From contig JAEUHX010000024.1 in assembly GCA_016792805.1 (NCBI GenBank), positions 1-52,523 of the forward strand: a DNA stretch of 52,523 bases, read 5' to 3'. The DNA is from Planctomycetota bacterium (lineage in GTDB: Bacteria; Planctomycetota; UBA1135; JACQFD01). Position numbers and translations under genes: made by a program. Under the pieces are notes generated by a model. The model did not search any database, was not told the origin of the DNA, and saw only the letters and a list, made by a program, of their open reading frames with translations. Shown piece after piece: positions 6,179-34,311 of the stretch; within the stretch, counting starts at the first letter, position 1, and each line of letters opens with the position of its first letter.

Positions 6179-6200
6179 GAGGCGGAGAATCTACCGCCTC
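6179..6200 (-). terminator. Hairpin between the RTX gene and the cytochrome gene
   Basis: A perfect 7-bp stem, GAGGCGG paired with CCGCCTC, encloses an 8-base loop. It lies about 40 bases beyond the stop of the minus-strand RTX gene and 25 bases before the cytochrome start. There is no T-run, so if it ends transcription it is not a classical intrinsic terminator. It could instead be a leader hairpin of the cytochrome mRNA. Confidence 0.35.
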
Positions 6201-6240
6201 GCGAAGCTCCTGCGTCACGCCGTCGGACGGGGGCTCCTCG

Positions 6241-7527
6241 TTACTGATTGTTCTCGATGGCGCGCCGGGCGAACGTCACGTTGCCGTTGGGAATGAACGT
6301 GTCGGTGCCGGCCCCACCGTCGACGATCCACTGGACGAGCGGATAGAGCGTGACCCCCACCGGCTTCGTCACGTTCACATTGAACGTGTCGTTCCCGAGG
6401 CCGCCGAACATCGCGGCGTCGAGGATTCCAGTCGAACCGTTCGCGAAGCTCCAAGCGGCGTTGAGGGTGTCATTGCCTTCGCCACCCGCCATACGAAGTA
6501 CAACGCCGGCTCGGAAACCGGCGGCCGTAAAGGCGTCAAGGTCCTGATCGCCGAGCGACACGCTCAGCTCGTCGTTGCCGAGGCCGCCTTCGAGGTCGAT
6601 GTCGAGGATGCCCTCCAAGAGCACAACTCCGGTGGACGCCTGACCAAAGATCTCATTGCTCACAGAAAGGTTGTCATTTCCATCCCCGCCCGCCGCGTGG
6701 ATGCGAAATCGCGGGATCACGTTTGCCGCAGCCCCCTGGAGGTCGAAGGTCGAGTGATCGAACTCCGCACGGAAAACGTCATTTCCGGCTCCGAGATTCA
6801 CGTCCACGAGGGCCATGCTTGCAGAATTGAGATTGTTGGTGTATCGCACGACGACCGTGTCCGTCTGCTTTCCGCCTTCGCACCGAATGCGGAGGTCTGT
6901 GGGCTCTGAGCTCAGGCCAACATTCCCCCCGATCTCGACGGTGAACTGATTCGTCCCCGTGCCGAGTGTCCCTTCGATCTCGACGGTGCCGCCGAACACA
7001 GAGGAAAAGAGGGTTACAGATCCGGTGTCATTTCCGACGCCAGCGTTCCACTTGAAGGCGTAGAGCGCATTGTCATTTCCCGGCGCGGCCCAGTTGAGAA
7101 TGTCGTTCCCCGCGCCCCCGATGGCATCGATGGTGTAGCCGCCGAGCTGAAGCGTCGCGGCCGAGCCCGTGCCCGTGATCGTGTCGTTTCCGCCGCCGCC
7201 GTCGATCACAATTCGACGGTTGCGCGTGCCCGCGCCGGTCACCTGATAAGTAACCACGTCATTTCCGTTGCCTGCCAGGACCTCGATCGTCTCCACATTC
7301 CCGACCGAGTTCGCATTCACGTCTCCCGGATCCAGGAAATCGCCATCGCCGTTGGCGTCGACAGAAATTGTGACCGCGCCTGTAGTCAGATTGTCGTCAA
7401 TCTGGATGCGGTCGATCCCACTCGTGCCGACGACGCGCACGTCGGTCGTGCCGTTGTTGTCGAAATCGCCCGTGTTGACGGCGACGGTCGGAGCGAGGAG
7501 CAATGCCGTTGAGAGATGCATGATCAT
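6241..7527 (-). CDS. Secreted RTX-type calcium-binding repeat protein
   Basis: A protein of about 428 residues with a signal peptide (MHLSTALLLAPTVAVN; ATG at 7527 or 7521). The N-terminus carries EF-hand-like loops (DFDNNGTTD, then DANGDGDFLDPGD). Eight or so RTX nonapeptide motifs of the GGxGNDxL type follow, such as GGGGNDTIT, GGAGNDILN, GGLGNDELS and GGEGNDTLN. In known proteins these bind calcium in a parallel beta-roll after export. No catalytic domain is visible, so a structural or surface role is likely. The open frame continues upstream to 8064, but that part lies antisense to moxR and lacks coding character, and the signal peptide fixes the start. A broken relative of its C-terminus lies at 9482-9660. 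Confidence 0.85.
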   Translation of the reverse strand: MIMHLSTALLLAPTVAVNTGDFDNNGTTDVRVVGTSGIDRIQIDDNLTTGAVTISVDANGDGDFLDPGDVNANSVGNVETIEVLAGNGNDVVTYQVTGAGTRNRRIVIDGGGGNDTITGTGSAATLQLGGYTIDAIGGAGNDILNWAAPGNDNALYAFKWNAGVGNDTGSVTLFSSVFGGTVEIEGTLGTGTNQFTVEIGGNVGLSSEPTDLRIRCEGGKQTDTVVVRYTNNLNSASMALVDVNLGAGNDVFRAEFDHSTFDLQGAAANVIPRFRIHAAGGDGNDNLSVSNEIFGQASTGVVLLEGILDIDLEGGLGNDELSVSLGDQDLDAFTAAGFRAGVVLRMAGGEGNDTLNAAWSFANGSTGILDAAMFGGLGNDTFNVNVTKPVGVTLYPLVQWIVDGGAGTDTFIPNGNVTFARRAIENNQ

Positions 7528-7623
7528 GGGATTCGAAGCGGTAGGAGCCCGAGGGTTCAGGGGACCGGGAGTGTATCGTGCCTGAGGTACCACGGTGGGA
7601 AGGCGCCCCACGCGAAGAGCGAC

Positions 7624-7637
7624 GTTCCGCGTATCCT
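7624..7637 (+). promoter_or_regulatory. Shared promoter-like box upstream of moxR
   Basis: GTTCCGCGTATCCT lies 49 bases before the moxR start. It recurs almost exactly (GTTCCCGCGTATCCT) at 10940-10954 before the DUF58 gene. TATCCT would serve as a -10 element; no TTGACA-like -35 is visible. The match between two genes that normally share an operon suggests a common promoter type. Confidence 0.45.
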
Positions 7638-7686
7638 CTCGCCCCCCATTTCCTACTCGACCCGCCATCCTTCCCACCCCTGAGCC

Positions 7687-8676
7687 GTGACCGACGTCCT
7701 CGCCGTTTCCGAACGTGTCAAAGCCGAGAGCGCCTTCCTCCGCGACGTGGTGCGCGAGGTGGAATCCGTGATCGTGGGGCAGCGGGCGCTCCTCGACGGC
7801 ATGCTCATCGGCCTGCTGGCCGATGGGCACGTGCTGCTCGAGGGCGTGCCGGGTCTCGCCAAGTCGCTCGCAGTATCGACGCTGGCGGCCACCGTAGGCG
7901 GGACCTTTCGGCGCATTCAGTTCACGCCCGATCTGTTGCCTTCGGATCTCCTCGGGACGCAGGTCTACAGCCCCAAGACCGGCGAGTGGTCGGTGCGGGA
8001 AGGACCCGTATTTGCGAACTTCGTGCTTGCCGACGAGGTGAACCGCGCACCGGCCAAAGTGCAATCGGCGCTGCTGGAGGCCATGCAGGAGCGCCAGGTG
8101 ACGCTCGCAGGCGAAACGCGCTCGCTGCCCGAGCCGTTCCTCGTGCTCGCGACGCAGAACCCGGTGGAGCAGGAAGGCACCTATCCCCTGCCGGAGGCGC
8201 AGCTCGACCGCTTCATGCTCAAGCTCGTCGTGGGATATCCCACAAAAGAGGAGGAGCGCCTGATCGTCGATCGCATGGCAACCACGGCACGCAAGCCGCA
8301 GGCGCGGCAGGTGGCGCGCCCGGAGCAGCTTGTCACGGCGCGCCGGCTCCTCGATCAGGTCTACGTCGACGAGAAAGTGCGCAATTATGTGGTGGATCTC
8401 GTTTTCGCCACGCGCAAGCCGGCGGATTACGGGCTCAAGGATCTCACGCCGCTCGTTCTGTATGGAGCATCGCCGCGCGCGTCGATTGCGCTAACGCAGG
8501 CGGCGCGCGCACGCGCGTTCCTGGAAGGGCGCGGATTTGTGACGCCGCAGGACGTGAAGAGCGTCGGCATGAGCGTGTTGCGTCACCGCGTCATTACCAC
8601 CTATGAGGCCGAGGCCGAAGGGCTCAGCTCGGAGCACGTGATTCAGAAGTGCTTCGACACCGTCCCCGTTCCGTAG
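7687..8676 (+). CDS. moxR: MoxR-family AAA+ ATPase
   Basis: A 329-residue MoxR ATPase, thought to act as a chaperone that matures or inserts partner complexes containing von Willebrand factor A proteins. The Walker A motif GVPGLAKS is at 53-60, Walker B FVLADE at 112-117, sensor 1 ATQNP around 155-159 and QLDRF, an arginine-finger-type region, near 172-176; the C-terminal lid domain follows. The start is GTG at 7687, giving the usual length. MoxR normally sits directly before a DUF58 gene and the Bat genes. Here that partner is 2.3 kb downstream at 10977, separated by a dehydrogenase on the same strand and a minus-strand insertion. The divergent RTX gene starts 159 bases upstream. Confidence 0.93.
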   Translation: MTDVLAVSERVKAESAFLRDVVREVESVIVGQRALLDGMLIGLLADGHVLLEGVPGLAKSLAVSTLAATVGGTFRRIQFTPDLLPSDLLGTQVYSPKTGEWSVREGPVFANFVLADEVNRAPAKVQSALLEAMQERQVTLAGETRSLPEPFLVLATQNPVEQEGTYPLPEAQLDRFMLKLVVGYPTKEEERLIVDRMATTARKPQARQVARPEQLVTARRLLDQVYVDEKVRNYVVDLVFATRKPADYGLKDLTPLVLYGASPRASIALTQAARARAFLEGRGFVTPQDVKSVGMSVLRHRVITTYEAEAEGLSSEHVIQKCFDTVPVP

Positions 8677-8712
8677 CCAGGCCGCTATCACAAAACCGCT
8701 GGAGGAGCTCCC

Positions 8713-9474
8713 ATGACCGGACTCGGATTTCAAGGCAAAGTCGTTCTTGTGACGGGCGGCACCTCAGGCATCGGCCGCGCCACGGCATTGGAGCTGGCTC
8801 GGCGCGGCGCCGCCGTCGTGCTCACGGGCCGCCGCGAATCGGAAGGGCGTCAGGTCGCTGCGGCGATCACCTCCCTCGGAGGAAAAGCTCAATTCTTCCG
8901 GGCCGATGCACAGCTCGAGTCCGACGCGAAGGCGATGGTGGAGTTCACCATCGCAACCTACGGGCGCCTCGACGGCGCATTCAACAATGCCGGCACCGAA
9001 GGCCGCGGCATGGTCCCCGTCGTCGAGCAGGATGAGCGCAATCTTCGGCAGATCTTCGAGGTGAACGTCTACGGCACGCTCTGGGCCATGAAGCATGAGA
9101 TCCCCGAGCTCGTGAAGACGAAAGGTGCCATTGTCAATAATGCTTCGGTGGCGGGCCTCGTCGGATTCGGGGGGATGTCGGCCTATTCAGCCAGCAAGCA
9201 CGCCGTCATCGGGGCAACCCGCTCTGCGGCGCTGGAGCTCGCCGCCCAGGGTGTTCGCATCAACGCGATCGCTCCGGGCGGTGTGGAAACCGAGATGCTG
9301 CAGCGCGTCGGCGGCGACGGCGCTGTGCTGGATTTCATTCGATCCAACCATCCGATGAAGCGCCTCGGCACCCCCGAGGAGATGGCCGCAACAGTTGCGT
9401 TTCTCCTCTCGCCGGAGGCCGGATTTGTGACCGGCACCGTTCTCGCCGCCGACGGCGGGTGGTGCGCTCAGTAA
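8713..9474 (+). CDS. Short-chain dehydrogenase/reductase (SDR)
   Basis: A 253-residue classical SDR, an NAD(P)-dependent oxidoreductase with a Rossmann fold. The cofactor motif TGGTSGIG is at 14-21, NNAG at 91-94 and the catalytic Ser145, Tyr158 and Lys162 are present. The C-terminal TGTVLAADGGW is typical of the family. The ATG at 8713 has a strong ribosome binding site, GGAGGAG at 8701-8707. The substrate cannot be told from sequence. It begins 36 bases after moxR, so the two are probably cotranscribed. An SDR is not a usual part of a moxR/Bat cluster, and it may have arrived with the minus-strand genes that follow. Confidence 0.93.
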   Translation: MTGLGFQGKVVLVTGGTSGIGRATALELARRGAAVVLTGRRESEGRQVAAAITSLGGKAQFFRADAQLESDAKAMVEFTIATYGRLDGAFNNAGTEGRGMVPVVEQDERNLRQIFEVNVYGTLWAMKHEIPELVKTKGAIVNNASVAGLVGFGGMSAYSASKHAVIGATRSAALELAAQGVRINAIAPGGVETEMLQRVGGDGAVLDFIRSNHPMKRLGTPEEMAATVAFLLSPEAGFVTGTVLAADGGWCAQ

Positions 9475-21197: not shown

Positions 21198-22862
21198 CTA
21201 CTTCTGGCGCCTTGCCATTACTAATATGTCTTGCGGCTTCGAACGGTCGGAGATTGGAAGGACCTCGAAGAGGGTCTGCGTGGCAGAGTAGGTCGCGTCA
21301 ACCAGCTTGATATTGCATTTTCCAGAAGGGAGCCACATTTCCCTTACTCCCGATTCAAGGGTCACGAGATCGCTTGGGCCACTTTCCGCGCCCACTCCGA
21401 CAGTGCACTTACCGAGGGAGGAGCCTGAAGCTTCATCGACGACACGGATGCGGCATGGTGCCCATGTACCGCGAATAGTGATGTCGATGCGCGGGCCGAT
21501 TCCCTCACGAATTTCGAAGTCCCTTGTGTCGAGGTGAGCGGACAGTACGGAGCTGAATGACTCGACGTGATACCAGCCCATTGGCAATCTTGTGGGCGTG
21601 CCGAATGGAATCTGCACGCTAAGTTCCTCCGAGCGATCTCGTTTCGATGTGCTTCCGCCGCTGGAGCTGTATGTGATATGCCATGGCGCGAAGGATGGAA
21701 TTGTCGAACCCGCCGCATCTTTCACATAAACGGAAGCCTCTACTGACCTGAGTGCGCCCGCCACGGTGGTCGACGGCCGCACGATCTCTACAATTGGAGG
21801 ATTCGAGAGCTTGTGAGCTGTCGACTCGTGCTCCAGAAACCCCGCACTCCGCAGAAGGATTCGGTTCCGTACTGTGAACGGCTGACCATCGGCAGGCACC
21901 GCGACTAGAATGAGTGCATCCGGATACTGCGCACGTAACTGGTTGAACGCTCGACCCTGCTCGGCCGCAGACGAGTTTGCAAAGGAGAGCGCCTGCGAAC
22001 CCTGCATCGCTCCACCGAACACCTCATCCCCTTCAACTCGAACGATCGATGCATAGATCGCTCCAAATCGAATGCGAACCTTCTCCTGATTGGAGGGATT
22101 GACCGTAGTAGGCTTGTCGATAGGAGCCAAGCCATGCTTCTCGGCGAGAAGTGTCATTTCTTGAGAAGGAAGATTCCTAATGCGGATCTGACCGGCTGAA
22201 TCCGAACGCCCAATGAATATGGCGGTTCGAGGGTCGGCACCAGGCATCGAATGAATGAACAGATCGTCATCGAAGGAGTTCTGTTCTCGCGTGACACGAT
22301 CGATGGAGAGCGCCACAACGGCGCCGTCCACTGGAGCCCCCGCCGTGTCTACGCATTCGAAATCTATGAACTTTGCCTCCTCAAGTTGGATCTCGTGACC
22401 ACCACCACGAGTCAATTCAGCTGTCACAATTCGGCTGAGATAGCCGTCGGCGCGCACAACCGCTTCCTTCTCAAGCATCGATTTAGGACCGGTTGAGACC
22501 AACTCAAGTTCACCATTTGCGTCGCTCTCTCCAAGAAGTGCTGCGTCCGCGGCACACACATACCGTTTCGCCTTTGGTAGAAGCCACGCCTGAGCACCCG
22601 CCTTGGGCTGCCGCTGTGGGTCGACAACACGTATCAATCGATCACTCTTCTCGTGAAGTGAAAGAGCCGACGGGGCCGAGGCAACACTCGGACTCGATGA
22701 CTGGGAGGCCATCGGTTGCTCGCCAGGATCCTCGACCCGAGGGACCACCAGTTTGGATTCGAGTTCTCCGGCACCTGGTTGATCCACGGACTTGCGCAGC
22801 CCCCAATAAGCGGCTACACCCAAGATCACGATAAGCGTAATTGCGATCTTAGCGAACTTCAC
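21198..22862 (-). CDS. Membrane-anchored protein of unknown function (carboxypeptidase-regulatory-like domains)
   Basis: About 554 residues. GTG at 22862 begins VKFAKIAITLIVILGVAAYWG, a single N-terminal membrane anchor; a longer frame reaches 22937. A Ser/Pro-rich linker (about 45-75) is followed by a large outer region of beta-sandwich segments such as VVDPQRQPKAGAQAWLLPK and IRVVDEASGSSLGKCTVGV, resembling CarboxypepD-regulatory or CnaB-like folds. It looks related in style to the outer domains of the sigma fusions at 26990-34311 but has no sigma part. It is flanked by direct repeats A and B, so the 2.6-kb segment may have been duplicated or inserted as a unit. Function is unknown. Confidence 0.7.
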   Translation of the reverse strand: MKFAKIAITLIVILGVAAYWGLRKSVDQPGAGELESKLVVPRVEDPGEQPMASQSSSPSVASAPSALSLHEKSDRLIRVVDPQRQPKAGAQAWLLPKAKRYVCAADAALLGESDANGELELVSTGPKSMLEKEAVVRADGYLSRIVTAELTRGGGHEIQLEEAKFIDFECVDTAGAPVDGAVVALSIDRVTREQNSFDDDLFIHSMPGADPRTAIFIGRSDSAGQIRIRNLPSQEMTLLAEKHGLAPIDKPTTVNPSNQEKVRIRFGAIYASIVRVEGDEVFGGAMQGSQALSFANSSAAEQGRAFNQLRAQYPDALILVAVPADGQPFTVRNRILLRSAGFLEHESTAHKLSNPPIVEIVRPSTTVAGALRSVEASVYVKDAAGSTIPSFAPWHITYSSSGGSTSKRDRSEELSVQIPFGTPTRLPMGWYHVESFSSVLSAHLDTRDFEIREGIGPRIDITIRGTWAPCRIRVVDEASGSSLGKCTVGVGAESGPSDLVTLESGVREMWLPSGKCNIKLVDATYSATQTLFEVLPISDRSKPQDILVMARRQK

Positions 22863-23836: not shown

Positions 23837-24562
23837 CTAGCCGAGCAGCTCGTCGCCCTGCGACGAGCGAACCAACAAAAGGCAGCCGTGATCGGTGCGC
23901 TGCACCGGATGCACGCTCCGCAGCTCGGCACGCTGGTAATCACCGGCGGTCATCACGACCTCGCCACGCTCTTCCAAAATGTGAAGATCACCGCTCAAGA
24001 CATAGCACTCCTCGGACGCGCCATGCCGGTGGGCCGGGTAGGTCGAGCCGGGGTCCATGCGGATGAGCATCGTGACCATGCGCGCCGCGTCGTCGACCGA
24101 GAGCTGGCGCACGCGGATCCCGGGGAATCCCGTCTCCTCAAAGCTGCCGTCCGCCGACGCAATCACCGGATTCTCGGAAACTGTGGTATCGCGCCAGCGG
24201 CGCCAAACCTGACCTGCCGCACCGGTGGCATCAGCCGACGATGCCGGAGCCGCCACGGGGGCGCGCCCGCGCATGCGCTCGGTGTGAAGCCGCGCCATCA
24301 GGCGCTCCTTTGCGCCTGCGGGCGGCTCCACCGGCGGAGCCGTGAGACCGAGCGAGCCGATGGCGGCGAGCGCCGAGCGCAACGCCACAAGTGACGCCGT
24401 CCCGCCCGACTCGAGCTGAGCGACGAACGCATCGCGCTCCGCGGCGTCCATCTGCCCTAGCACAAATAGCCCGGCCTGCTCGAAGAGCGCGGCCGCCTGT
24501 TCACGGGTGAGCGGCTCGCTGGAAGGCGAGGGCGAATGGGTTCGATGGGTCGAGTCGGTCAT
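23837..24562 (-). CDS. ChrR-like cupin protein (anti-sigma factor-like)
   Basis: A 241-residue protein with the two-part layout of ChrR-type anti-sigma factors. The N-terminal helical domain (about 20-70, LFVLGQMDAAERDAFVAQLE) resembles anti-sigma domains. The C-terminal cupin (about 135-235) contains HRHGASEECYVLSGD, with His178, His180 and Glu184 as likely metal ligands. In known systems ChrR holds an ECF sigma factor and releases it on singlet-oxygen or metal stress. Here the zinc-binding His/Cys set of ChrR's N-terminus is not apparent and no ECF sigma gene lies next to it, so it may have lost that partner or act alone as a cupin enzyme. ATG at 24562. Confidence 0.75.
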   Translation of the reverse strand: MTDSTHRTHSPSPSSEPLTREQAAALFEQAGLFVLGQMDAAERDAFVAQLESGGTASLVALRSALAAIGSLGLTAPPVEPPAGAKERLMARLHTERMRGRAPVAAPASSADATGAAGQVWRRWRDTTVSENPVIASADGSFEETGFPGIRVRQLSVDDAARMVTMLIRMDPGSTYPAHRHGASEECYVLSGDLHILEERGEVVMTAGDYQRAELRSVHPVQRTDHGCLLLVRSSQGDELLG

Positions 24563-26989: not shown

Positions 26990-29900
26990 CTAGAACTCCA
27001 CAGAACAGAACTCGCCCGGCTTTGCCGTCACGCTCTTCTCGAGCACGCGCCCGTCTCCGAGCTCCGCTCGGGCTTGATATTCACCGGCTCCGACTCGCCA
27101 GCCCGTGTTCCCATCCCGGTGCGTTCGCACGCCGAGCACGATTCCATTTTGTGACAACGTGTAGCGCCCAGATAGCCCCTTCGGCGCCTTAAGGGAAACG
27201 TAGGCGGCTTCCTCAAGCCAAAGCTCCAGGCTGGACTCCTCGCCACGCTCGCTGACGGACACCCGCGGCGAAGACCCCGCTTGCGCATAGAGGCTCCGCC
27301 CCGACAGGCCCAGCGCCGACGCAAACCAGACGCGATAAGTGCGCGTCGGGTCGAGATGGCTCACTTCGAAGGATCCATCGATCACCTCTCCGCGGATCAG
27401 CTCTCCCTCCAGCGTCTCGAATTGTAGGGAACCAGAGGGGGGCTTCTCCACGCCGCGAAGCCGCAGCGTGCCGCGGAGTGCGACTGCGGGCGCCATCTCG
27501 GCGGTCCACTCCACGGGCACCTCAGAATTCGTTACCGCCACGGACTCGGCGGAATAAGCCACATATCCAGGGGCGCGGCACCGAAGGCGATGGTCGCCCG
27601 CAGGGACGCCCTTGATTTGGTAGATCCCCGGCGCAAGGAGCTCGCCGCGGCCCGCCCCCGGCTCGAGCCACGCTTCGAAAACAGCGATCGGGCGACGGGT
27701 GCCCCGCTCCACGGCCTTTACCTCGATCACTCCGGCCGCCTTCGGGCGCTCCTGCGCGCCCTCGAGCCGAACCTCAAGAAACGTGCTCTCCGGCACGTCC
27801 AGGACTGTGGCATCGCCTTCGCCCACGGCCCGCACGATGTAAGGCCCCGGGGGCAATTCCCCGATTTCAAAGCTGCCATCGGCGCCCGCCTGTCCCCAGC
27901 TGAGGTACACCAATTCCGTGTCTCCTGAATCTGTGAGCGCCGGCCCCGACCCCGGACCGGGAAACCACTGCTCGACAGGCGCGCTGCGGTGCAGCACATG
28001 AATCTGTGTGCCAGGCGCTGGCTGGCCGGCGGCCGATAGCACGCGCCCGCGCAGCGTTCGCTCGCGCTTCAGAACGATCTTCATCGGAGCCGTTCGATTC
28101 GCTTCCGAGAGAACATCGGTCTTCACTGGCGCAAAGCCGGGTGCGCGCACAGTAAGCCGAAGGCTTGGCACGTTCTCTTCGGAGAACGGTACTCTCACTT
28201 TTCCATCCCGGCCCGTGCGTGGAGCCATGGCCAATGTCGGCGGATTGAGGCCGAAGTTCACAAAAGCGCCGCCAACAGGCTTGCCATCCTCCGCGCAGAC
28301 CTCCACAGAGACATCGCGGCCGGCCGCGCTCTGCGGGAATACAAAATCGGGAAGACTCAGTTCCGTTCCTCGCTGAAGTTCCAAAGCACCGGCCAGCATC
28401 TTCTCGCGCACCAGAACGGCCATGGACACAATGGTGGCGTTTCCAGTAGCCGGTGGCTCCCAAAGAACTTGATACTCACCTTTCGCATCGGTGATCCAGG
28501 ATTGGGGCCTCCAACCTGAGACGAGGACCTCGCGTCCTCGAGGCGCTTCCGCCCCCACCATCACGGTGGCACCCTCCACCGGAATTCCGCGCTGATCCAC
28601 GACTCGCCCACGCACGCGCAGCCCCGCCTTCAGGCGAATCTCGAGCCGGTGGCGATTCCCCTCAGCAATCGGCGGCAGCGACTTACGCCACGGGAGATAG
28701 CCTTCCGCCAACACAGCGACCTCCAAAGACATTTGTGATGCAATCCCCTGTGCCGGGACGTCCGCCAGCTGAAACGTGCCGTCGCCATTCGACCGCGCCG
28801 AGAGTGGATTCCCGAAGCGACCGAATGGAATGAGTGGACCATGGCTTCGAGCGAAGGCATTTCCTCCGCCGAAGCGGGTCTCGACTTCGATCTGTGCACC
28901 GGTGATCGGGTTTCGCGTCGCAAGGTCGGAGACGCTCCCCTCCAGGCTCGCGCCCCGAGCCATCCAGAGGTCGAGCTTCCCCTCAGGGAATTGTGGATTC
29001 GCGACGCGAAGCGGCGGGAGCCCCTGCGCGGTCACCTCAATGCGATGCCAACACTTCGGACTCCATGCCTCGAAGGGAGGAAGGCCCTCGACTCGATAGC
29101 GTCCTTCGGCGTCGGCGGTCGTCTTCCGCCGGATCTGGATACAGTCCAAGCCGACGAGCCAGCTCAGCTGCGCTCGGACGACAGGCTCTCCTTGGAGCGT
29201 CCGAACATGACCGGTCACAACGACCGCAGGTCGCAGGCGAATCTCCATTTCTTGCTCCGCGCGAACTGCCGCCGAAATGTTCGGTCCCATGCCGCTCGCA
29301 TAGGCAGCCAGAAAGTACACATCGGCCGCGCTCTCTACGGGAAGGCGAAACCGTCCGTCCTGGTCGCAGACTCCCACACGCGCACCGCCCGGTAGCGGCT
29401 CGACGTCGAGCACAAACGGCGTCTGAATCGATTCCGGGATACACACAATATTCGCGTGAGGAATTCCCTCGCCTGTTGGGCCGACCACGCGCCCAAGAAC
29501 GAACGACTCGTTGATTTGTGTCTCCAGCTCGGCGCGCGCCCCGTTCTCACTTTTCGTGTCCGCCACAGAAGTGGCCGCCGCCCCCGCGGGAGCCGTGGGC
29601 CCCGCTGCCGGCCCGGGTTGCGAGTTGGGGGGCGATTCCAGATCCCATGGCGACCAGATCGCCGCCGCGGCAAGCGCAGCAATCCCCACGGCCGCCGCGA
29701 GCTTCCCGATGGGAAATGCAACCGATTGCGCCGCGACGAGCGGCTCTGCGCCCGAGAGCTGCGCGGCGCGTGCCAGCAGCGGACCCCACACGGCGCGCGC
29801 GCCGTGCTTCGCCTCGATTTGTGCGCGGATCAGCCCGACGCCGCGCTTGATGCGAGTTCTTACAGTTTCGACCGGAACCTGAATCCGTTGCGCAATCTCG

Positions 29901-30295
29901 CGAGGTGCAAGCCCGTCATAAAAGCGGGCAATCACGGCCGAGCGCGTTGGCTCCTCGAGCTCCAACACGGCCTGCACCACCGCGCGGCGAAGGGTCTCCG
30001 CCTCCACGAGCTCGGCTGCGGACCCGACGCGATCGGCACGCGCGGCGCGCCGCTCGCGATCCTCGCGGTGGAATTGTGACCTCCGCCGAGCAAGCGACAG
30101 ATTGCGCACCACGCCGCCAAGCCAGGCGCGCAGCCCTGGCGCGTCCGGCTCCCGCCGCAGAGCCGCCATCCAGGTCTCCTGCGCCACATCCTCCGCCTCG
30201 TGCTCGTCGCGAAGGATCTGCCGAGCGAGCGCCTGCACGAATTGTGCGTGCGCCAGGAGCACCTGCGGATCGGCGGCGGTGGGCGGCTTCGACAT
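26990..30295 (-). CDS. Membrane-tethered ECF sigma factor fused to a carboxypeptidase-regulatory-repeat ectodomain
   Basis: About 1101 residues. The N-terminus is a complete ECF sigma factor: region 2 at about 11-75 (EAEDVAQETW near the promoter-melting helix) and region 4 at about 113-165 (PREIAQRIQVPVETVRTRIK). One transmembrane helix follows (about 197-215), then a Pro/Ala-rich linker and some 850 residues of beta-sandwich repeats of the carboxypeptidase-regulatory type, such as VLGRVVGPTGEGIPHANIVC and VRGRVVDQRGIPVEGATVMV. The chain would place the sigma part in the cytoplasm and the repeats outside. Known ECF factors are usually soluble and held by a separate anti-sigma; here sensing and promoter recognition may be one chain, perhaps freed by proteolysis. 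That mechanism is inference. ATG at 30295; a longer start at 30322 is possible. Confidence 0.85.
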   Translation of the reverse strand: MSKPPTAADPQVLLAHAQFVQALARQILRDEHEAEDVAQETWMAALRREPDAPGLRAWLGGVVRNLSLARRRSQFHREDRERRAARADRVGSAAELVEAETLRRAVVQAVLELEEPTRSAVIARFYDGLAPREIAQRIQVPVETVRTRIKRGVGLIRAQIEAKHGARAVWGPLLARAAQLSGAEPLVAAQSVAFPIGKLAAAVGIAALAAAAIWSPWDLESPPNSQPGPAAGPTAPAGAAATSVADTKSENGARAELETQINESFVLGRVVGPTGEGIPHANIVCIPESIQTPFVLDVEPLPGGARVGVCDQDGRFRLPVESAADVYFLAAYASGMGPNISAAVRAEQEMEIRLRPAVVVTGHVRTLQGEPVVRAQLSWLVGLDCIQIRRKTTADAEGRYRVEGLPPFEAWSPKCWHRIEVTAQGLPPLRVANPQFPEGKLDLWMARGASLEGSVSDLATRNPITGAQIEVETRFGGGNAFARSHGPLIPFGRFGNPLSARSNGDGTFQLADVPAQGIASQMSLEVAVLAEGYLPWRKSLPPIAEGNRHRLEIRLKAGLRVRGRVVDQRGIPVEGATVMVGAEAPRGREVLVSGWRPQSWITDAKGEYQVLWEPPATGNATIVSMAVLVREKMLAGALELQRGTELSLPDFVFPQSAAGRDVSVEVCAEDGKPVGGAFVNFGLNPPTLAMAPRTGRDGKVRVPFSEENVPSLRLTVRAPGFAPVKTDVLSEANRTAPMKIVLKRERTLRGRVLSAAGQPAPGTQIHVLHRSAPVEQWFPGPGSGPALTDSGDTELVYLSWGQAGADGSFEIGELPPGPYIVRAVGEGDATVLDVPESTFLEVRLEGAQERPKAAGVIEVKAVERGTRRPIAVFEAWLEPGAGRGELLAPGIYQIKGVPAGDHRLRCRAPGYVAYSAESVAVTNSEVPVEWTAEMAPAVALRGTLRLRGVEKPPSGSLQFETLEGELIRGEVIDGSFEVSHLDPTRTYRVWFASALGLSGRSLYAQAGSSPRVSVSERGEESSLELWLEEAAYVSLKAPKGLSGRYTLSQNGIVLGVRTHRDGNTGWRVGAGEYQARAELGDGRVLEKSVTAKPGEFCSVEF

Positions 30296-30487
30296 GGTTG
30301 CGTCCAGCACATTGCAGCCCACCCCGATTCCGGTTCACGAGCCGCACGGCCGGCGCGGCTCCATGCTCACCCAGCCGAATCGCCCTGTCAGCACTCGAGT
30401 CTGCGCGGGAGCAATTGGCTCCGGGACGAAACCTTCAAAGACGACAACCAGCTGCATCGAATTCGGTTTGGGCGGCATCCTTGGTGC
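30296..30487. promoter_or_regulatory. Shared divergent upstream region of two sigma-factor fusions
   Basis: These 192 bases separate the starts of two divergent genes that both encode membrane-tethered ECF sigma factors. ECF factors often activate their own promoters, so both could bind here. I could not pick out a reliable GGAAC-type -35 or a matched pair of boxes by eye. Confidence 0.4.
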
Positions 30488-32644
30488 GTGGCATCGCATC
30501 GCCCCGACCTCCTGCTCGCCCACACCGGCTGGGTGCGCGAACTGGCGCATGCCCTGACGCGTGACTTTCATGTCGCCGAGGATGCGGCGCAGCAGGCACT
30601 CCTCTCGGGTCTGAGCCATGCTCCTGAAGAGGAGAACGTACTCCGCCGCTGGCTCGCGGTGGTCGTTCGCAACTTCGTCTTCGAACGGCATCGCCAGAAC
30701 CGGCGCCGCCTCGAGCGCGAGTCGATGGCCGCGCGAAAGGGCGAATGTGAAGATCACAGCACGGTGCTCGTGCGAGCAGAGGCCCACCAAGCGCTGGTGC
30801 GCGCCGTGCTCGACCTCGACGAGCCGTACCGCACCGCAATTTTAATGCGGTACTTCGATCAAAAACCGCCAAGGGCGATCGCCGCACAGCTCGGAGTATC
30901 TGTGAATACGGTTCGCTCTCGTCTCGCGCGCGCACTCGAGCAGCTCAAGCGCACGCTGGATCAGCGCTACGGGAGCACTCACGGCTGGCTCGGCCCTCTC
31001 GGATCGATCGCCGCACAAGCACAACCTCTGTCGGGCCCCCTCAGCCTCGGAACAGTCATGTCTACAAAATTCGCGCTCGCCGCGGGAGGCTGCATCGCAT
31101 TGGGATTCCTCGCTTGGTCAACGTTCCCGAGGATCACGTCGAATGGTGAGAGCGCGACGGTGGCGGTGGCAGGGCAGGACCAGACCGTGCAGCCTCCGGC
31201 GCAGCCCAGGAATCCTCACGATTCAAGCAGGCGAGTGCCCGAGAGTTCCGCCACCACACAGAAAAGCGCCGCCGCCCCGAACACAATTCTCTACGGACGC
31301 GCCACAGATACCGCCGGAAGGCCGTTGGAAATCCGCCCGATGCTCGAGCGCGAAGGGGAGCCGACAGCTTGGGGCGCCGGAAGCACCGACGGGGATTTTG
31401 CCGTCGCGGCGATTGCTCCAGGACCTTACGAATTCGCGGCGCTGTGCAGCGGCTATGTTCCCTATCGCGAGCAGGTCGAGATTCCTGCGGGAGTCGAAGA
31501 GGTGCGACGCGACATCGTGTTCCAGAAATCTGGAATCCTGAGTGTTCGCCTGGTTCAGACGAACGGCGCGCCGTGGAATCAGGAGGACACGAACGCAGGC
31601 GCATTGCAGCCGTGGATAGGGCGACTCGCTGTTGTGGCAACGCGAACGCCGGCTCCCACGGCATTTCCGCCCTTCTCCAACTCCATCGCGCTGCTCGGGG
31701 AGGGCACCTTTGAACTCGGCCGCTCTTCGGGCATCTCGCCGAGGCCCGCCCCCGAAGGAATGATCGGGTGGCTCATCCTCAAATCGCCGCCGCCGCTTTT
31801 TGTGAGCCTTTGCATCGGATCTGCCGTGCTGGCGACGGCCCCAATCCAGCCTGGACAGGAAGACGTCGCCTTCACTCTCGATCCAGCAGCGGTCACGAAA
31901 GTGCTCGCCCGGGTCATCGTTACCGTGATCGACGGTGAAACGGGCGGATTCCTGGAGGGGTGTTCTGTAGGAATCGATACGACGACCCACGGCGGAGCCA
32001 CTGCGACCACGAACTCCCAAGGCCGCGCCGAGTGGGACGCGCCGCCTTTCTCTGGGCTTCTCACAATTCGCGCCAAAGAGCGTGCTCTAGTGCGGTTGCC
32101 TGTCGATTTGCGCCCTGGCGAGATTCATGATTTTGGCACAATTCGGGCATCCAAGCCGATCCGCGTGCGTGGGCGGATCGATGTTCGAGCGGGGATCTCC
32201 GATCATTGGCAGCTCCACGTTCATCCCGAGGACAGCAGTGCCCCTTGGGTCGCCTGGGAGCCTCGCGCAGTGGACTCCAAGGGAGCATTCGATCTAGAGC
32301 TTCCGCCGGGCCGGTACACTGCGGTCGGCTCGAGTCCGGTGACGGGAAGAGCCACCGAAGCCGTCCGATTCGAGGCTTCGCCCGGCGAACTTCCTGAAAT
32401 TGTGATACCGGCTCCCCAGGCGACTCCCGTACGCATCTCCCCACGGGAGTCTTCCCGCGGACAGCGATGGAGCATTACCGATACCGAGGGACGCTTGCTG
32501 TGGGCACGCGAAATCGTTCGAGCTCTGCCGCAACGCCTCTTGCTCCCTCCTGGGAATTATGTGCTTCTCAATGATCGCGGCCGTGGAGGCCGCCTACCGT
32601 TCGAAGTTCGCACCGCGAAGGTTCAGCTCGAACCTCCATTCTGA
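30488..32644 (+). CDS. Membrane-tethered ECF sigma factor with large ectodomain
   Basis: About 718 residues with the same plan as its divergent neighbour. Sigma region 2 is at about 8-70 (FHVAEDAAQQALLSGL) and region 4 at about 107-160 (IAAQLGVSVNTVRSRLARAL). One transmembrane helix (about 195-212) is followed by a linker and an outer domain of about 480 residues. The ectodomain differs from the neighbour's repeats but matches the next gene downstream at several points, including RPGEIHDFG at 542-550. GTG at 30488 gives a normal ECF start; the frame is open to 30200 but overlaps the divergent gene. The gene ends 14 bases before its sigma-less paralogue. Confidence 0.85.
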   Translation: MASHRPDLLLAHTGWVRELAHALTRDFHVAEDAAQQALLSGLSHAPEEENVLRRWLAVVVRNFVFERHRQNRRRLERESMAARKGECEDHSTVLVRAEAHQALVRAVLDLDEPYRTAILMRYFDQKPPRAIAAQLGVSVNTVRSRLARALEQLKRTLDQRYGSTHGWLGPLGSIAAQAQPLSGPLSLGTVMSTKFALAAGGCIALGFLAWSTFPRITSNGESATVAVAGQDQTVQPPAQPRNPHDSSRRVPESSATTQKSAAAPNTILYGRATDTAGRPLEIRPMLEREGEPTAWGAGSTDGDFAVAAIAPGPYEFAALCSGYVPYREQVEIPAGVEEVRRDIVFQKSGILSVRLVQTNGAPWNQEDTNAGALQPWIGRLAVVATRTPAPTAFPPFSNSIALLGEGTFELGRSSGISPRPAPEGMIGWLILKSPPPLFVSLCIGSAVLATAPIQPGQEDVAFTLDPAAVTKVLARVIVTVIDGETGGFLEGCSVGIDTTTHGGATATTNSQGRAEWDAPPFSGLLTIRAKERALVRLPVDLRPGEIHDFGTIRASKPIRVRGRIDVRAGISDHWQLHVHPEDSSAPWVAWEPRAVDSKGAFDLELPPGRYTAVGSSPVTGRATEAVRFEASPGELPEIVIPAPQATPVRISPRESSRGQRWSITDTEGRLLWAREIVRALPQRLLLPPGNYVLLNDRGRGGRLPFEVRTAKVQLEPPF

Positions 32645-32658
32645 TCTCCAACAAATCC

Positions 32659-34311
32659 ATGGTGACCGATCGAAGAAGTGTGGCTTGGAGCGTCGTCGCC
32701 GCCATGGCTGTTGCACTCATGATGGCAGCGGTCTTCGTCGGACGCGCCCCGATAGCCCATTGGGTCGCGGATCCAGACCGGGCGCGGCTCGAAGCGATCC
32801 CTGGGGGAGAGCGAGCTTTCGCCGATGCTCCAAGAGCTCCGGCGTCCATCGCAGAAGCGGCTGAGGAGAGGCAGGTCGGGAAACCGAACCCAGTTGCAAT
32901 AAAAGCGCCGCTCAAGCCCATTCTCGCGGGATCGGTGCGCTCGACCGCCAAGGCCGAGCTGGAGCAGTGCACGCTGATGGCCGAGAGAATCGATACAGCA
33001 GATGGAACGAAGGAGCGGAGAGAAACCCATGTGCTTCGCGGAATGTTCGTCCTGCCTGCCATGACTCCGGGAAAGTGGCGGCTGCGAGTCCATGCTCCAG
33101 ATCATTCCGATGCGGAAGCCACAATAGACATCCTGCAGAATCCGCAGATCCAAAGATGTGACCTGCTCATCCGCGCTGGGCAGAAGATACTCATCCGATT
33201 CCGAACTCCGGAGGGAGAGTCTCTCTTCGATACCCTCGACTCGCGGGGGCTCAAGATGCGCTGGTTCTCCCCCATCAGCGCTGTGGCAACGCGAGAGCAC
33301 CCTGGAGCGCAGCTGCCGCCCACGGAGAGTCGATCGATTACGCGAACGGCCGTCGGACATTACAAGAGCTTCGGCGTTCGCCTCCCGGAGGAACCTGCGC
33401 CCCCCGTCGGATTCGATGGGATTCTCACGATTCATGGCGACTTGCCCATTTTTGTGAGCGCTGCTCTGCGCAGCCAGGTTCTTACAACCGCCGAGGTCTC
33501 GGAGCAAACTGGATCCCTCGACATGCTGGTGGATCCCGACGCACTGGAGGCGAAGCTCGGGCAGGTCACCGTCACATTTCTCGACTCGAGGTCCCGCAAG
33601 CCCGCTTCCGATGTCTCGGCGAAGATCTCGACTCGGTCTGGTGGCGGCCAAGCAGGAATACGGCAGACGGATGGCTCGCTGCGATTCACACAGCTTGAGC
33701 CGGGATGGCTCGTGATCGAGGCCACGAGCAAGCGCCACGCTCCTGCTCGATGGAACTTCCTGTTGCGGCCCGGCGAGATTCAGGACTTTGGAGATATTGC
33801 TCTCGAGGAGCCTGCCGAGATCTCCGGAGAAGTGATCTTCGCCAACGGTATGCCCGCGGCGGGCGCTGTCCGATGTGAATCCCCAAGTCCTCTCGATGGC
33901 TTCCGTCCCTACAGTTTCAATCATTCGCTGTTGACGAGCGCGGACGGCTGGTTTCGCCATTCGAGGGCAGCTCGAGGAAGGCACATTCTGAAGTTCGAAT
34001 CCAAGGGGTACGCAAGCGACGCAGTTCTCGTTGATACCTCGGAGGGCGACGTTGCGGGCCTTCGGCTTGTTGCATATCCAGCGGTGAAGCTCCACATCCG
34101 GGCCCGATCGAAGTCCGGTGAGCTCCTGATCGTGCGCAACTCTCGAGGAGTGGTCGCCTGGGCTGGCCTGCTCCACGAGGACTTTGACCCTGAGCCGATC
34201 GAGTTACCCGCCGGAAGCTACACCGTGAGCGTTACTTTGGATTCGCGCCTTCTGAAGACCACAGACGTCCGACTTGACGGCGCACCCTTCACACTTCAGA
34301 TGTGGCCTTGA
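32659..34311 (+). CDS. Sigma-less paralogue of the preceding ectodomain, membrane-anchored
   Basis: 550 residues. It starts with a short basic stretch and one transmembrane helix (about 8-28), with no sigma domain. The rest parallels the outer part of the protein encoded just upstream. Matches include RPGEIQDFG at 370-378 (RPGEIHDFG in the partner), LPIFVSAALRSQVLTTAEV with PLFVSLCIGSAVLATAPIQP, and VVAWAGLL...LPAGSY near the end with LLWAREIV...LPPGNY. It begins 14 bases after the partner gene, so both are probably made together. It may be a decoy, co-sensor or dimer partner; no function is known. ATG at 32659. Confidence 0.8.
   Translation: MVTDRRSVAWSVVAAMAVALMMAAVFVGRAPIAHWVADPDRARLEAIPGGERAFADAPRAPASIAEAAEERQVGKPNPVAIKAPLKPILAGSVRSTAKAELEQCTLMAERIDTADGTKERRETHVLRGMFVLPAMTPGKWRLRVHAPDHSDAEATIDILQNPQIQRCDLLIRAGQKILIRFRTPEGESLFDTLDSRGLKMRWFSPISAVATREHPGAQLPPTESRSITRTAVGHYKSFGVRLPEEPAPPVGFDGILTIHGDLPIFVSAALRSQVLTTAEVSEQTGSLDMLVDPDALEAKLGQVTVTFLDSRSRKPASDVSAKISTRSGGGQAGIRQTDGSLRFTQLEPGWLVIEATSKRHAPARWNFLLRPGEIQDFGDIALEEPAEISGEVIFANGMPAAGAVRCESPSPLDGFRPYSFNHSLLTSADGWFRHSRAARGRHILKFESKGYASDAVLVDTSEGDVAGLRLVAYPAVKLHIRARSKSGELLIVRNSRGVVAWAGLLHEDFDPEPIELPAGSYTVSVTLDSRLLKTTDVRLDGAPFTLQMWP

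Follow-up and report, generated by a model that had tools for sequence, protein, structure and literature searches.

In a 52,523-nucleotide stretch of a Planctomycetota bacterium (GenBank assembly GCA_016792805.1, contig JAEUHX010000024.1, positions 1 to 52,523; hereafter the window), two adjacent genes, here termed gene 2 and gene 3, encode respectively an extracytoplasmic function (ECF) sigma factor continued in the same chain by a predicted membrane helix and a large outer region, and a sigma-less protein that begins at a membrane helix and carries a homologous outer region. We consider it slightly better than an even chance that their products form a two-part sensor, in which the paired outer domains would retain the sigma factor at the membrane and a signal would bring about its proteolytic release. 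A third gene (gene 1), divergent from gene 2, encodes a further chain with a sigma factor, a helix and an outer region. The functional unit is likely to comprise genes 2 and 3. Gene 1 probably encodes another, separate receptor of this general class, one that has its own promoter and answers to a different signal.

An earlier note, made from the sequence alone, had described genes 1 and 2 as starting 192 bases apart on opposite strands, each with a full ECF sigma factor inside, one membrane helix and a sensor-like domain outside, and gene 3 as starting 14 bases after gene 2. This description agrees with the gene models (Table 1), which were obtained with a custom script, overextended starts being corrected by the position of the helix. 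Genes 1 and 2 each have Sigma70 regions 2 and 4 that score above the curated Pfam cut-offs, the margin being narrow for region 2 of gene 2 (24.5 against 24.0 bits), and both proteins pass the NCBIfam sigma70-ECF superfamily model (63.5 and 64.8 bits respectively; cut-off 42.9); gene 3 gave no NCBIfam match at an expectation value (E) of 0.1 or below. A hydrophobic helix follows region 4 in genes 1 and 2 and stands at the very start of gene 3, and CarboxypepD_reg (PF13620) is found above its curated Pfam cut-off in all three proteins. In the structure model of gene 2 (mean predicted local distance difference test score, pLDDT, of 82.8) the sigma2 and sigma4 helices are confident and are followed by a chain of beta-sandwiches, residues 178 to 262, a stretch that contains the membrane segment, being of low confidence; the model of gene 3 (mean pLDDT 86.3) shows a membrane helix at residues 5-27 and then sandwiches. 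Fold comparison places the sigma part with ECF factors, SigL among them, and relates single sandwiches to the transthyretin-like domains of carboxypeptidases D and N and to pilin-type domains, matches that are evidence of predicted fold, not of function. No zinc-finger domain was matched in genes 1-3 by any Pfam family at E ≤ 0.1.

The outer domains of genes 2 and 3 match at 25% over 404 residues, with E 9e-18 when the proteins encoded in the fetched loci serve as the database; a search of the whole genome relates gene 3 to gene 2 at E 2e-18, and both carry the RPGEIxDFG motif on which their kinship had first been proposed. The ECF profiles, the helix and the significance of the ectodomain match, the three points set beforehand on which the earlier description would stand or fall, thus all came out in its favor. 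A search of genomes for the same arrangement recovered the pair in G001, another genus of the same family as the genome under study (G000), where a counterpart of gene 2 is followed by two sigma-less genes. The best match of gene 2 in G001 is the head of this cassette (E 6e-89), and those of gene 3 are the two genes that follow it (E 4.5e-44 and 2.4e-33); within the loci fetched from relatives the same cassette is also the top match of the gene 2 sigma (46%), of the gene 2 ectodomain (28%) and of the gene 3 ectodomain. For both gene 2 and gene 3 the G001 counterpart gives a higher score than the other member of the window pair does, and the pair is therefore likely to have existed before the two genera diverged. 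The three genes as a single unit, the arrangement that had seemed most unusual, had to be given up because the best match of gene 1 in G001 (31%, E 3e-75) lies on contig C39 and the cassette on C18. Another sigma-fused gene of G001 lies about 3 kb from the cassette, but is only the third-listed match of gene 1 there. Sigma-fused genes stand near gene 3-family members in G001 (locus L129), G010 (L146) and G081 (L167), and some looser clustering of the two is possible. As a separate observation, the sigma-fused genes at L146 11902-15519 (+) and L167 9649-11910 (+) are divergent and stand beside gene 3-family members in two other genomes, in an arrangement that resembles that of genes 1 and 2, orthology not being established.

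When two neighboring genes are found fused, this is classically read as a sign that their products act together. Three chains (P0002, G066 and G187; hereafter sigma-A-B chains) carry in one frame a sigma part, a helix and a pair of these ectodomains. The 16 stretches inspected for such fusions had been picked partly for their long frames and hence give no fusion frequency. In P0002 the sigma part (residues 17-174) is followed by the helix and by ectodomain copies at 211-732 and 770-1228; the G187 frame runs into the contig end within its sigma part and shows, inside its first ectodomain, an additional and weaker hydrophobic peak. In G310 both ectodomains share one frame in which sigma was not detected. 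Because relatives of both outer domains are thus fused behind one sigma factor elsewhere, genes 2 and 3 likely make up one two-part sensor, and the fusions offer indirect support, at the level of sequence, for a heterodimer of the outer domains. The earlier note had offered "decoy or co-sensor" for gene 3. The co-sensor half is favored by the G001 pair and the sigma-A-B chains. As a decoy or inhibitor, gene 3 would bind the same ligand and set a threshold, forming no complex with gene 2, and its shared ectodomain lacking an output domain is what such a protein would look like; yet the presence of two such ectodomains in one chain in three cases implies a fixed 1:1 ratio and not titration, and we hold this explanation to be improbable.

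Relatives of gene 3 were recovered at E ≤ 1e-8 in at least 35 of 154 genomes of the order (at most 9 candidates scored per genome) and at E ≤ 1e-40 in at least 21 of 392 genomes of a sample of the phylum (3 candidates scored per genome). Across 21 genomes (41 loci, window included) we count 30 adjacent same-strand family pairs, of which 18 overlap by exactly 4 bp, pair gaps depending partly on the script, which places sigma-less starts at the nearest ATG before the helix; this count leaves out two weak or unusual members (L154|5 and L155|0), and the trees described below leave out three (these and L116|2). Sigma is fused to the first member in all five sigma-bearing tandem pairs seen (G000, G001, G010, G072 and G082) and to the second in none. 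A six-frame search for a free-standing sigma upstream of 34 sigma-less first members (up to 3 kb, some stretches being shortened by locus ends) gave a single match, in L167, encoded on the other strand. In L142, L163 (G141) and L135 (G091), four to five sigma-less gene 3-family members stand in tandem.

Tethering of a sigma factor within a single chain is standard in this organism, as judged by the 21 sigma-fused gene models found in G000. Pfam Sigma70_r4_2 has at least 78 matches in this genome, at least 24 of them in frames of at least 480 residues (the best 150 of 191 candidates having been scored and the frames counted by hand). From these 24 frames the 21 models, 19 of them outside the window, were analyzed; left out were the C34 sigma (called as a free gene of 206 residues), the C52 model (436 residues) and the gene at C72:15565 (missed by the gene caller). 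Together with 60 database proteins retrieved with gene 2, and hence chosen by similarity and not a random sample, and 11 from relatives, they form a sigma-fused set of 92 proteins, one truncated protein having been dropped from 93. The few database relatives that are named belong to entries labeled Planctomycetota bacterium or Planctomycetes bacterium. All 92 proteins have a hydrophobic stretch past the sigma part, at a median of 31 residues on (by a threshold of our own, no baseline being computed), and 68 of the 92 share a tryptophan motif in the linker (likewise with no baseline). The single chain had been set apart from the usual sigma/anti-sigma pair, which holds in that it is unusual in general; it is less distinctive than that suggests, with at least 21 cases in G000 and a mode of action already known for IutY and proposed for ECF52. 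At the other 19 sigma-fused loci of G000 analyzed, no neighbor is related to the ectodomain of the sigma-fused gene at E ≤ 1e-4, and we therefore rejected a sigma-less partner as a general trait of sigma-fused genes.

The history of the family was followed in three trees. In one, first and second members of pairs fall largely in separate clades that mirror each other in several families; a maximum-likelihood tree upholds the local mirrored clades, not the backbone, and places gene 2 beside second members (81/94); in a larger tree gene 2 groups with its counterpart from G001 (0.934), as gene 3 does with the partners from that genome (0.918). A clean split of the whole family into first and second members, suggested by the first tree, was thus only partly upheld by the two later ones. 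Sigma appears at several separate places in the larger tree, implying several gains or many losses. Sigma-less members from G032 and G006 are nested in the clade of the sigma-bearing G072, G082 and G010 members, and their starts fall, by eye, where the fused proteins have an internal methionine. In the sigma-fused set 53 of 92 proteins have a methionine within -14 to +2 of the helix, where 13.7 would be expected, and this residue is most often followed by serine or lysine, as in sigma-less starts. The likeliest account of these sequences is that sigma genes were joined to genes beginning at the helix. That the pre-helix methionine is instead a live internal start, by which one gene would give both a sigma-bearing receptor and a sigma-less form, could draw on the same excess and the same following residues; still, the remaining 39 proteins, gene 1 among them, have no such methionine, a Shine-Dalgarno-like sequence precedes just 2 of 13 such methionines in G000 as against 38 of 152 gene starts and 81 of 483 other internal methionines, and a relic of gene fusion is the simpler account. 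The Shine-Dalgarno signal is weak in this genome in any case, since only those 38 of 152 gene starts carry one, and we give a live internal start little credence. Locus L018 holds an unfused form (6188-8862, -): a 206-residue ECF sigma model overlaps by 4 bases the gene of a 685-residue protein that has a short inner segment plus a helix, the state one would expect to precede the joining of sigma and receptor.

A candidate promoter accompanies several of these genes. According to a published account, ECF factors read AAC at -35 and CGT at -10 (PMC8103513). The hexamer TGAAC[CT], a motif chosen after looking, lies upstream of 7 of the 21 sigma-fused genes of G000 and of 8 of 168 others (P 0.00028). 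All seven genes belong to one sigma clade of eight, and the mean identity of their sigmas was unmatched by random sets of seven in 20,000 draws. In G001, which was not used for motif discovery, TGAACY lies at -39 to -45 in 5 of the 13 sigma-fused genes used for promoter counts, three further G001 matches on C14 being outside the count; all five are among the nine whose sigma is closest to the motif clade, and none is among the other four. With a -10 part, TGAAY-N18-CRT occurs 38-45 nucleotides before the start in 9 of the 34 upstream regions (2 of 21 in G000, 7 of 13 in G001) against 0.05 expected in all, the -10 part and the 18-nucleotide spacing having been read from the same sequences, of both genomes, in which they were later counted; at each other spacing from 12 to 23 the two parts are found 0-2 times. 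The looser TGMAY-N18-CRT precedes three of the 21 sigma-fused genes of G000, gene 2 included, and none of 390 other genes of this genome, with starts as placed by the gene caller. In gene 2 the site TGCAT-N18-CAT ends 9 nucleotides before the GTG start and its G001 counterpart has TGAAT-N18-CAT; gene 1 has TGAAC-N18-CAA and its best G001 match TGAAC-N18-CAT. Because sigma clade and motif match, each sigma may read its own promoter, and that of gene 2 is probably both tethered and autoregulated, as far as these sequences can tell; messages from the candidate sites would be nearly leaderless. A promoter-like pattern alone is weak evidence.

Several observations weigh against the two-part sensor and its self-directed promoter, the circular derivation of the -10 part and spacing being one. 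The loose pattern occurs three times in the window against 7.7 expected, and TGAAC-N18-CGTC, at 34 occurrences in G000, is only just above the 25 of a reversed-pattern control, though in G001 it does exceed that control (35 against 11). The sigma part of the G001 counterpart is nearer another sigma of G000, L022 (50%), than that of gene 2 (46%). The deep branches of the trees are unsettled, the placement of gene 2 differs between them, and some pairs (G043, G054 and G087) resemble recent local duplicates. The sigma-bearing member of the G072 pair is short (580 residues), and its profile match counts one stop. No Pfam anti-sigma domain was matched in genes 1-3 at E ≤ 0.1, a search that a short or diverged one could escape. 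The sigma-bearing members of G011 and G007 have no partner at E < 1e-20 (the G007 contig extends only 1.3 kb downstream), and in one tree they group with second-position relatives. Most family members seen are without sigma, and the pair therefore has a function without it. These last points, the many sigma-less anchored helix and CarboxypepD_reg proteins in G000, and the 19 sigma-fused loci there that have no such neighbor would suit an alternative in which gene 2 acts on its own as a tethered one-component sigma sensor, gene 3 being a mere tandem duplicate with a separate surface role, such as adhesion or a scaffold. Set against it are the greater closeness of gene 3 to its G001 counterparts than to gene 2, which makes the pair likely older than the genera, the existence of sigma-A-B chains and the frequency of the 4-bp overlap in adjacent pairs; we judge it unlikely, if the most serious of the alternatives.

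For the two-part sensor, we propose that the two outer regions would associate with each other on the external side of the membrane and keep the gene 2 sigma tethered and inactive at the membrane. A signal would lead to a cut by a site-1 protease and then by a site-2 (M50) protease, and the freed sigma would transcribe its own gene from the TGCAT-N18-CAT site upstream, amplifying itself. Four M50 frames are present in G000. To act, a sigma factor must join core RNA polymerase. That requirement speaks against a further possibility, that the sigma works while membrane-bound and needs no proteolysis, for which transmembrane transcription regulators described as working from the cytoplasmic membrane (PMC10269533) offer a precedent; the studied fused sigma IutY of Pseudomonas putida is cut by Prc and RseP, freeing the sigma part (PMC5411451), and we regard action from the membrane as very improbable here.

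IutY (ECF243, a sigma/anti-sigma hybrid) resembles genes 1 and 2 in combining an ECF sigma, a membrane segment and a periplasmic region in one polypeptide (PMC5411451, PMC8999054). It differs in being 374 residues long, in its periplasmic anti-sigma domain and in working with the IutA receptor; the present proteins have CarboxypepD_reg-type sandwiches outside, no anti-sigma domain was detected in them, and a sigma-less homolog of gene 2 is encoded next door. ECF48, ECF52 (SCO4117) and ECF53 of Actinobacteria likewise join a sigma to one or more C-terminal membrane helices, SCO4117 having also an outer carbohydrate-binding domain, and the review that describes them gives them as expected cases of tethered-sigma release; its account assigns them a zinc-finger domain, not detected here, and mentions no partner gene (PMC8999054). 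Expansions of multi-domain ECF factors have been reported in Planctomycetota, the extensions described there being WD40 repeats or others, as against a single helix, a CarboxypepD_reg ectodomain and a partner in the present case (PMC8567305, PMC11032199). Tethered sigma factors are thus already known (IutY, ECF52), and what is new here is the homologous sigma-less partner subunit and the sigma-A-B chains, of which the titles and abstract openings of the literature searched gave no description.

The nearest functional analogs are the co-component systems. ToxR/ToxS and VtrA/VtrC are such pairs, with an adjacent partner gene and a DNA-binding winged helix as output. In these systems the associated protein of a tethered regulator inhibits its proteolysis or stimulates heterodimers, as a published account describes (PMC10269533). 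Genes 2 and 3 share with them a membrane-tethered regulator and an anchored partner next door, which G011 and G007 were not seen to have; they differ in that the output consists of sigma regions 2 and 4 and not a winged helix, and in that the two subunits are homologous to each other. A bolder proposal, plausible but short of an even chance, is a co-component-like cassette in which an ECF sigma was plugged several times into an old homologous ectodomain pair, giving an obligate heterodimeric receptor that has this sigma as its output and runs from its own near-leaderless promoter. If this is true, outside signals would reach RNA polymerase through a single chain and its partner in the absence of a separate anti-sigma factor; there would be in this family many natural sigma-bearing and sigma-less pairs for studying ectodomain control of sigma release; the promoter rule would give a predictable regulon and a circuit easily rebuilt in a laboratory host; and there would be a simple account of how ECF systems gain or lose a sensor through fusion at the membrane helix.

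Table 1. Positions of genes 1-3 and their predicted features in the window
Feature	Position	Strand	Description	Detail
Gene 1	26990..30295	-	ECF sigma, one predicted membrane helix, large outer region	1101 residues; ATG 30295
Gene 1 sigma region 2	30074..30253	-	residues 15-74	Pfam PF04542
Gene 1 sigma region 4	29840..29986	-	residues 104-152	Pfam PF08281
Gene 1 predicted membrane helix	29666..29722	-	about residues 192-210	hydropathy
Gene 1 candidate ECF-type promoter	30312..30337	-	TGAAC 30333-30337, N18, CAA 30312-30314	one base off the CRT form
Gene 2 candidate ECF-type promoter	30453..30478	+	TGCAT 30453-30457, N18, CAT 30476-30478	one base off TGAAY
Gene 2	30488..32644	+	ECF sigma, one predicted membrane helix, beta-sandwich outer region	718 residues; GTG 30488
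Gene 2 sigma region 2	30515..30709	+	residues 10-74	Pfam PF04542
Gene 2 sigma region 4	30788..30946	+	residues 101-153	Pfam PF08281
Gene 2 membrane segment	31058..31126	+	starts at internal Met-Ser-Thr-Lys, like the starts of sigma-less members	
Gene 2 outer region	31271..32641	+	residues 262-718	beta-sandwich domains
Gene 3	32659..34311	+	sigma-less; N-terminal membrane helix and outer region homologous to that of gene 2	550 residues
Gene 3 membrane helix	32680..32736	+	about residues 8-26	hydropathy; 5-27 in the structure model

Among the sigma matches listed, only genes 1 and 2 fall in the window. The octamer GAATTGTG/CACAATTC is strongly over-represented there, with 18 occurrences against 0.77 expected; since it is enriched over all loci of this genome (138 in 695 kb, spread over the loci, against 16 by an order-2 model), we rejected it as a local control site. 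Proteins of the ChrR type act elsewhere as anti-sigma factors, and a ChrR-type cupin protein (Cupin_7) is encoded at 23837-24562 (-) of the window. At 21198-22862 (-), 4 kb from the 3' end of gene 1, lies the gene of a 554-residue protein that has a helix at its N terminus, resembles the gene 3 family weakly (E 4e-9) and matches CarboxypepD_reg below the cut-off. Elsewhere, L052 7029-16961 (+) encodes three consecutive CarboxypepD_reg proteins of about 1,050-1,080 residues, longer than the 550-residue family.

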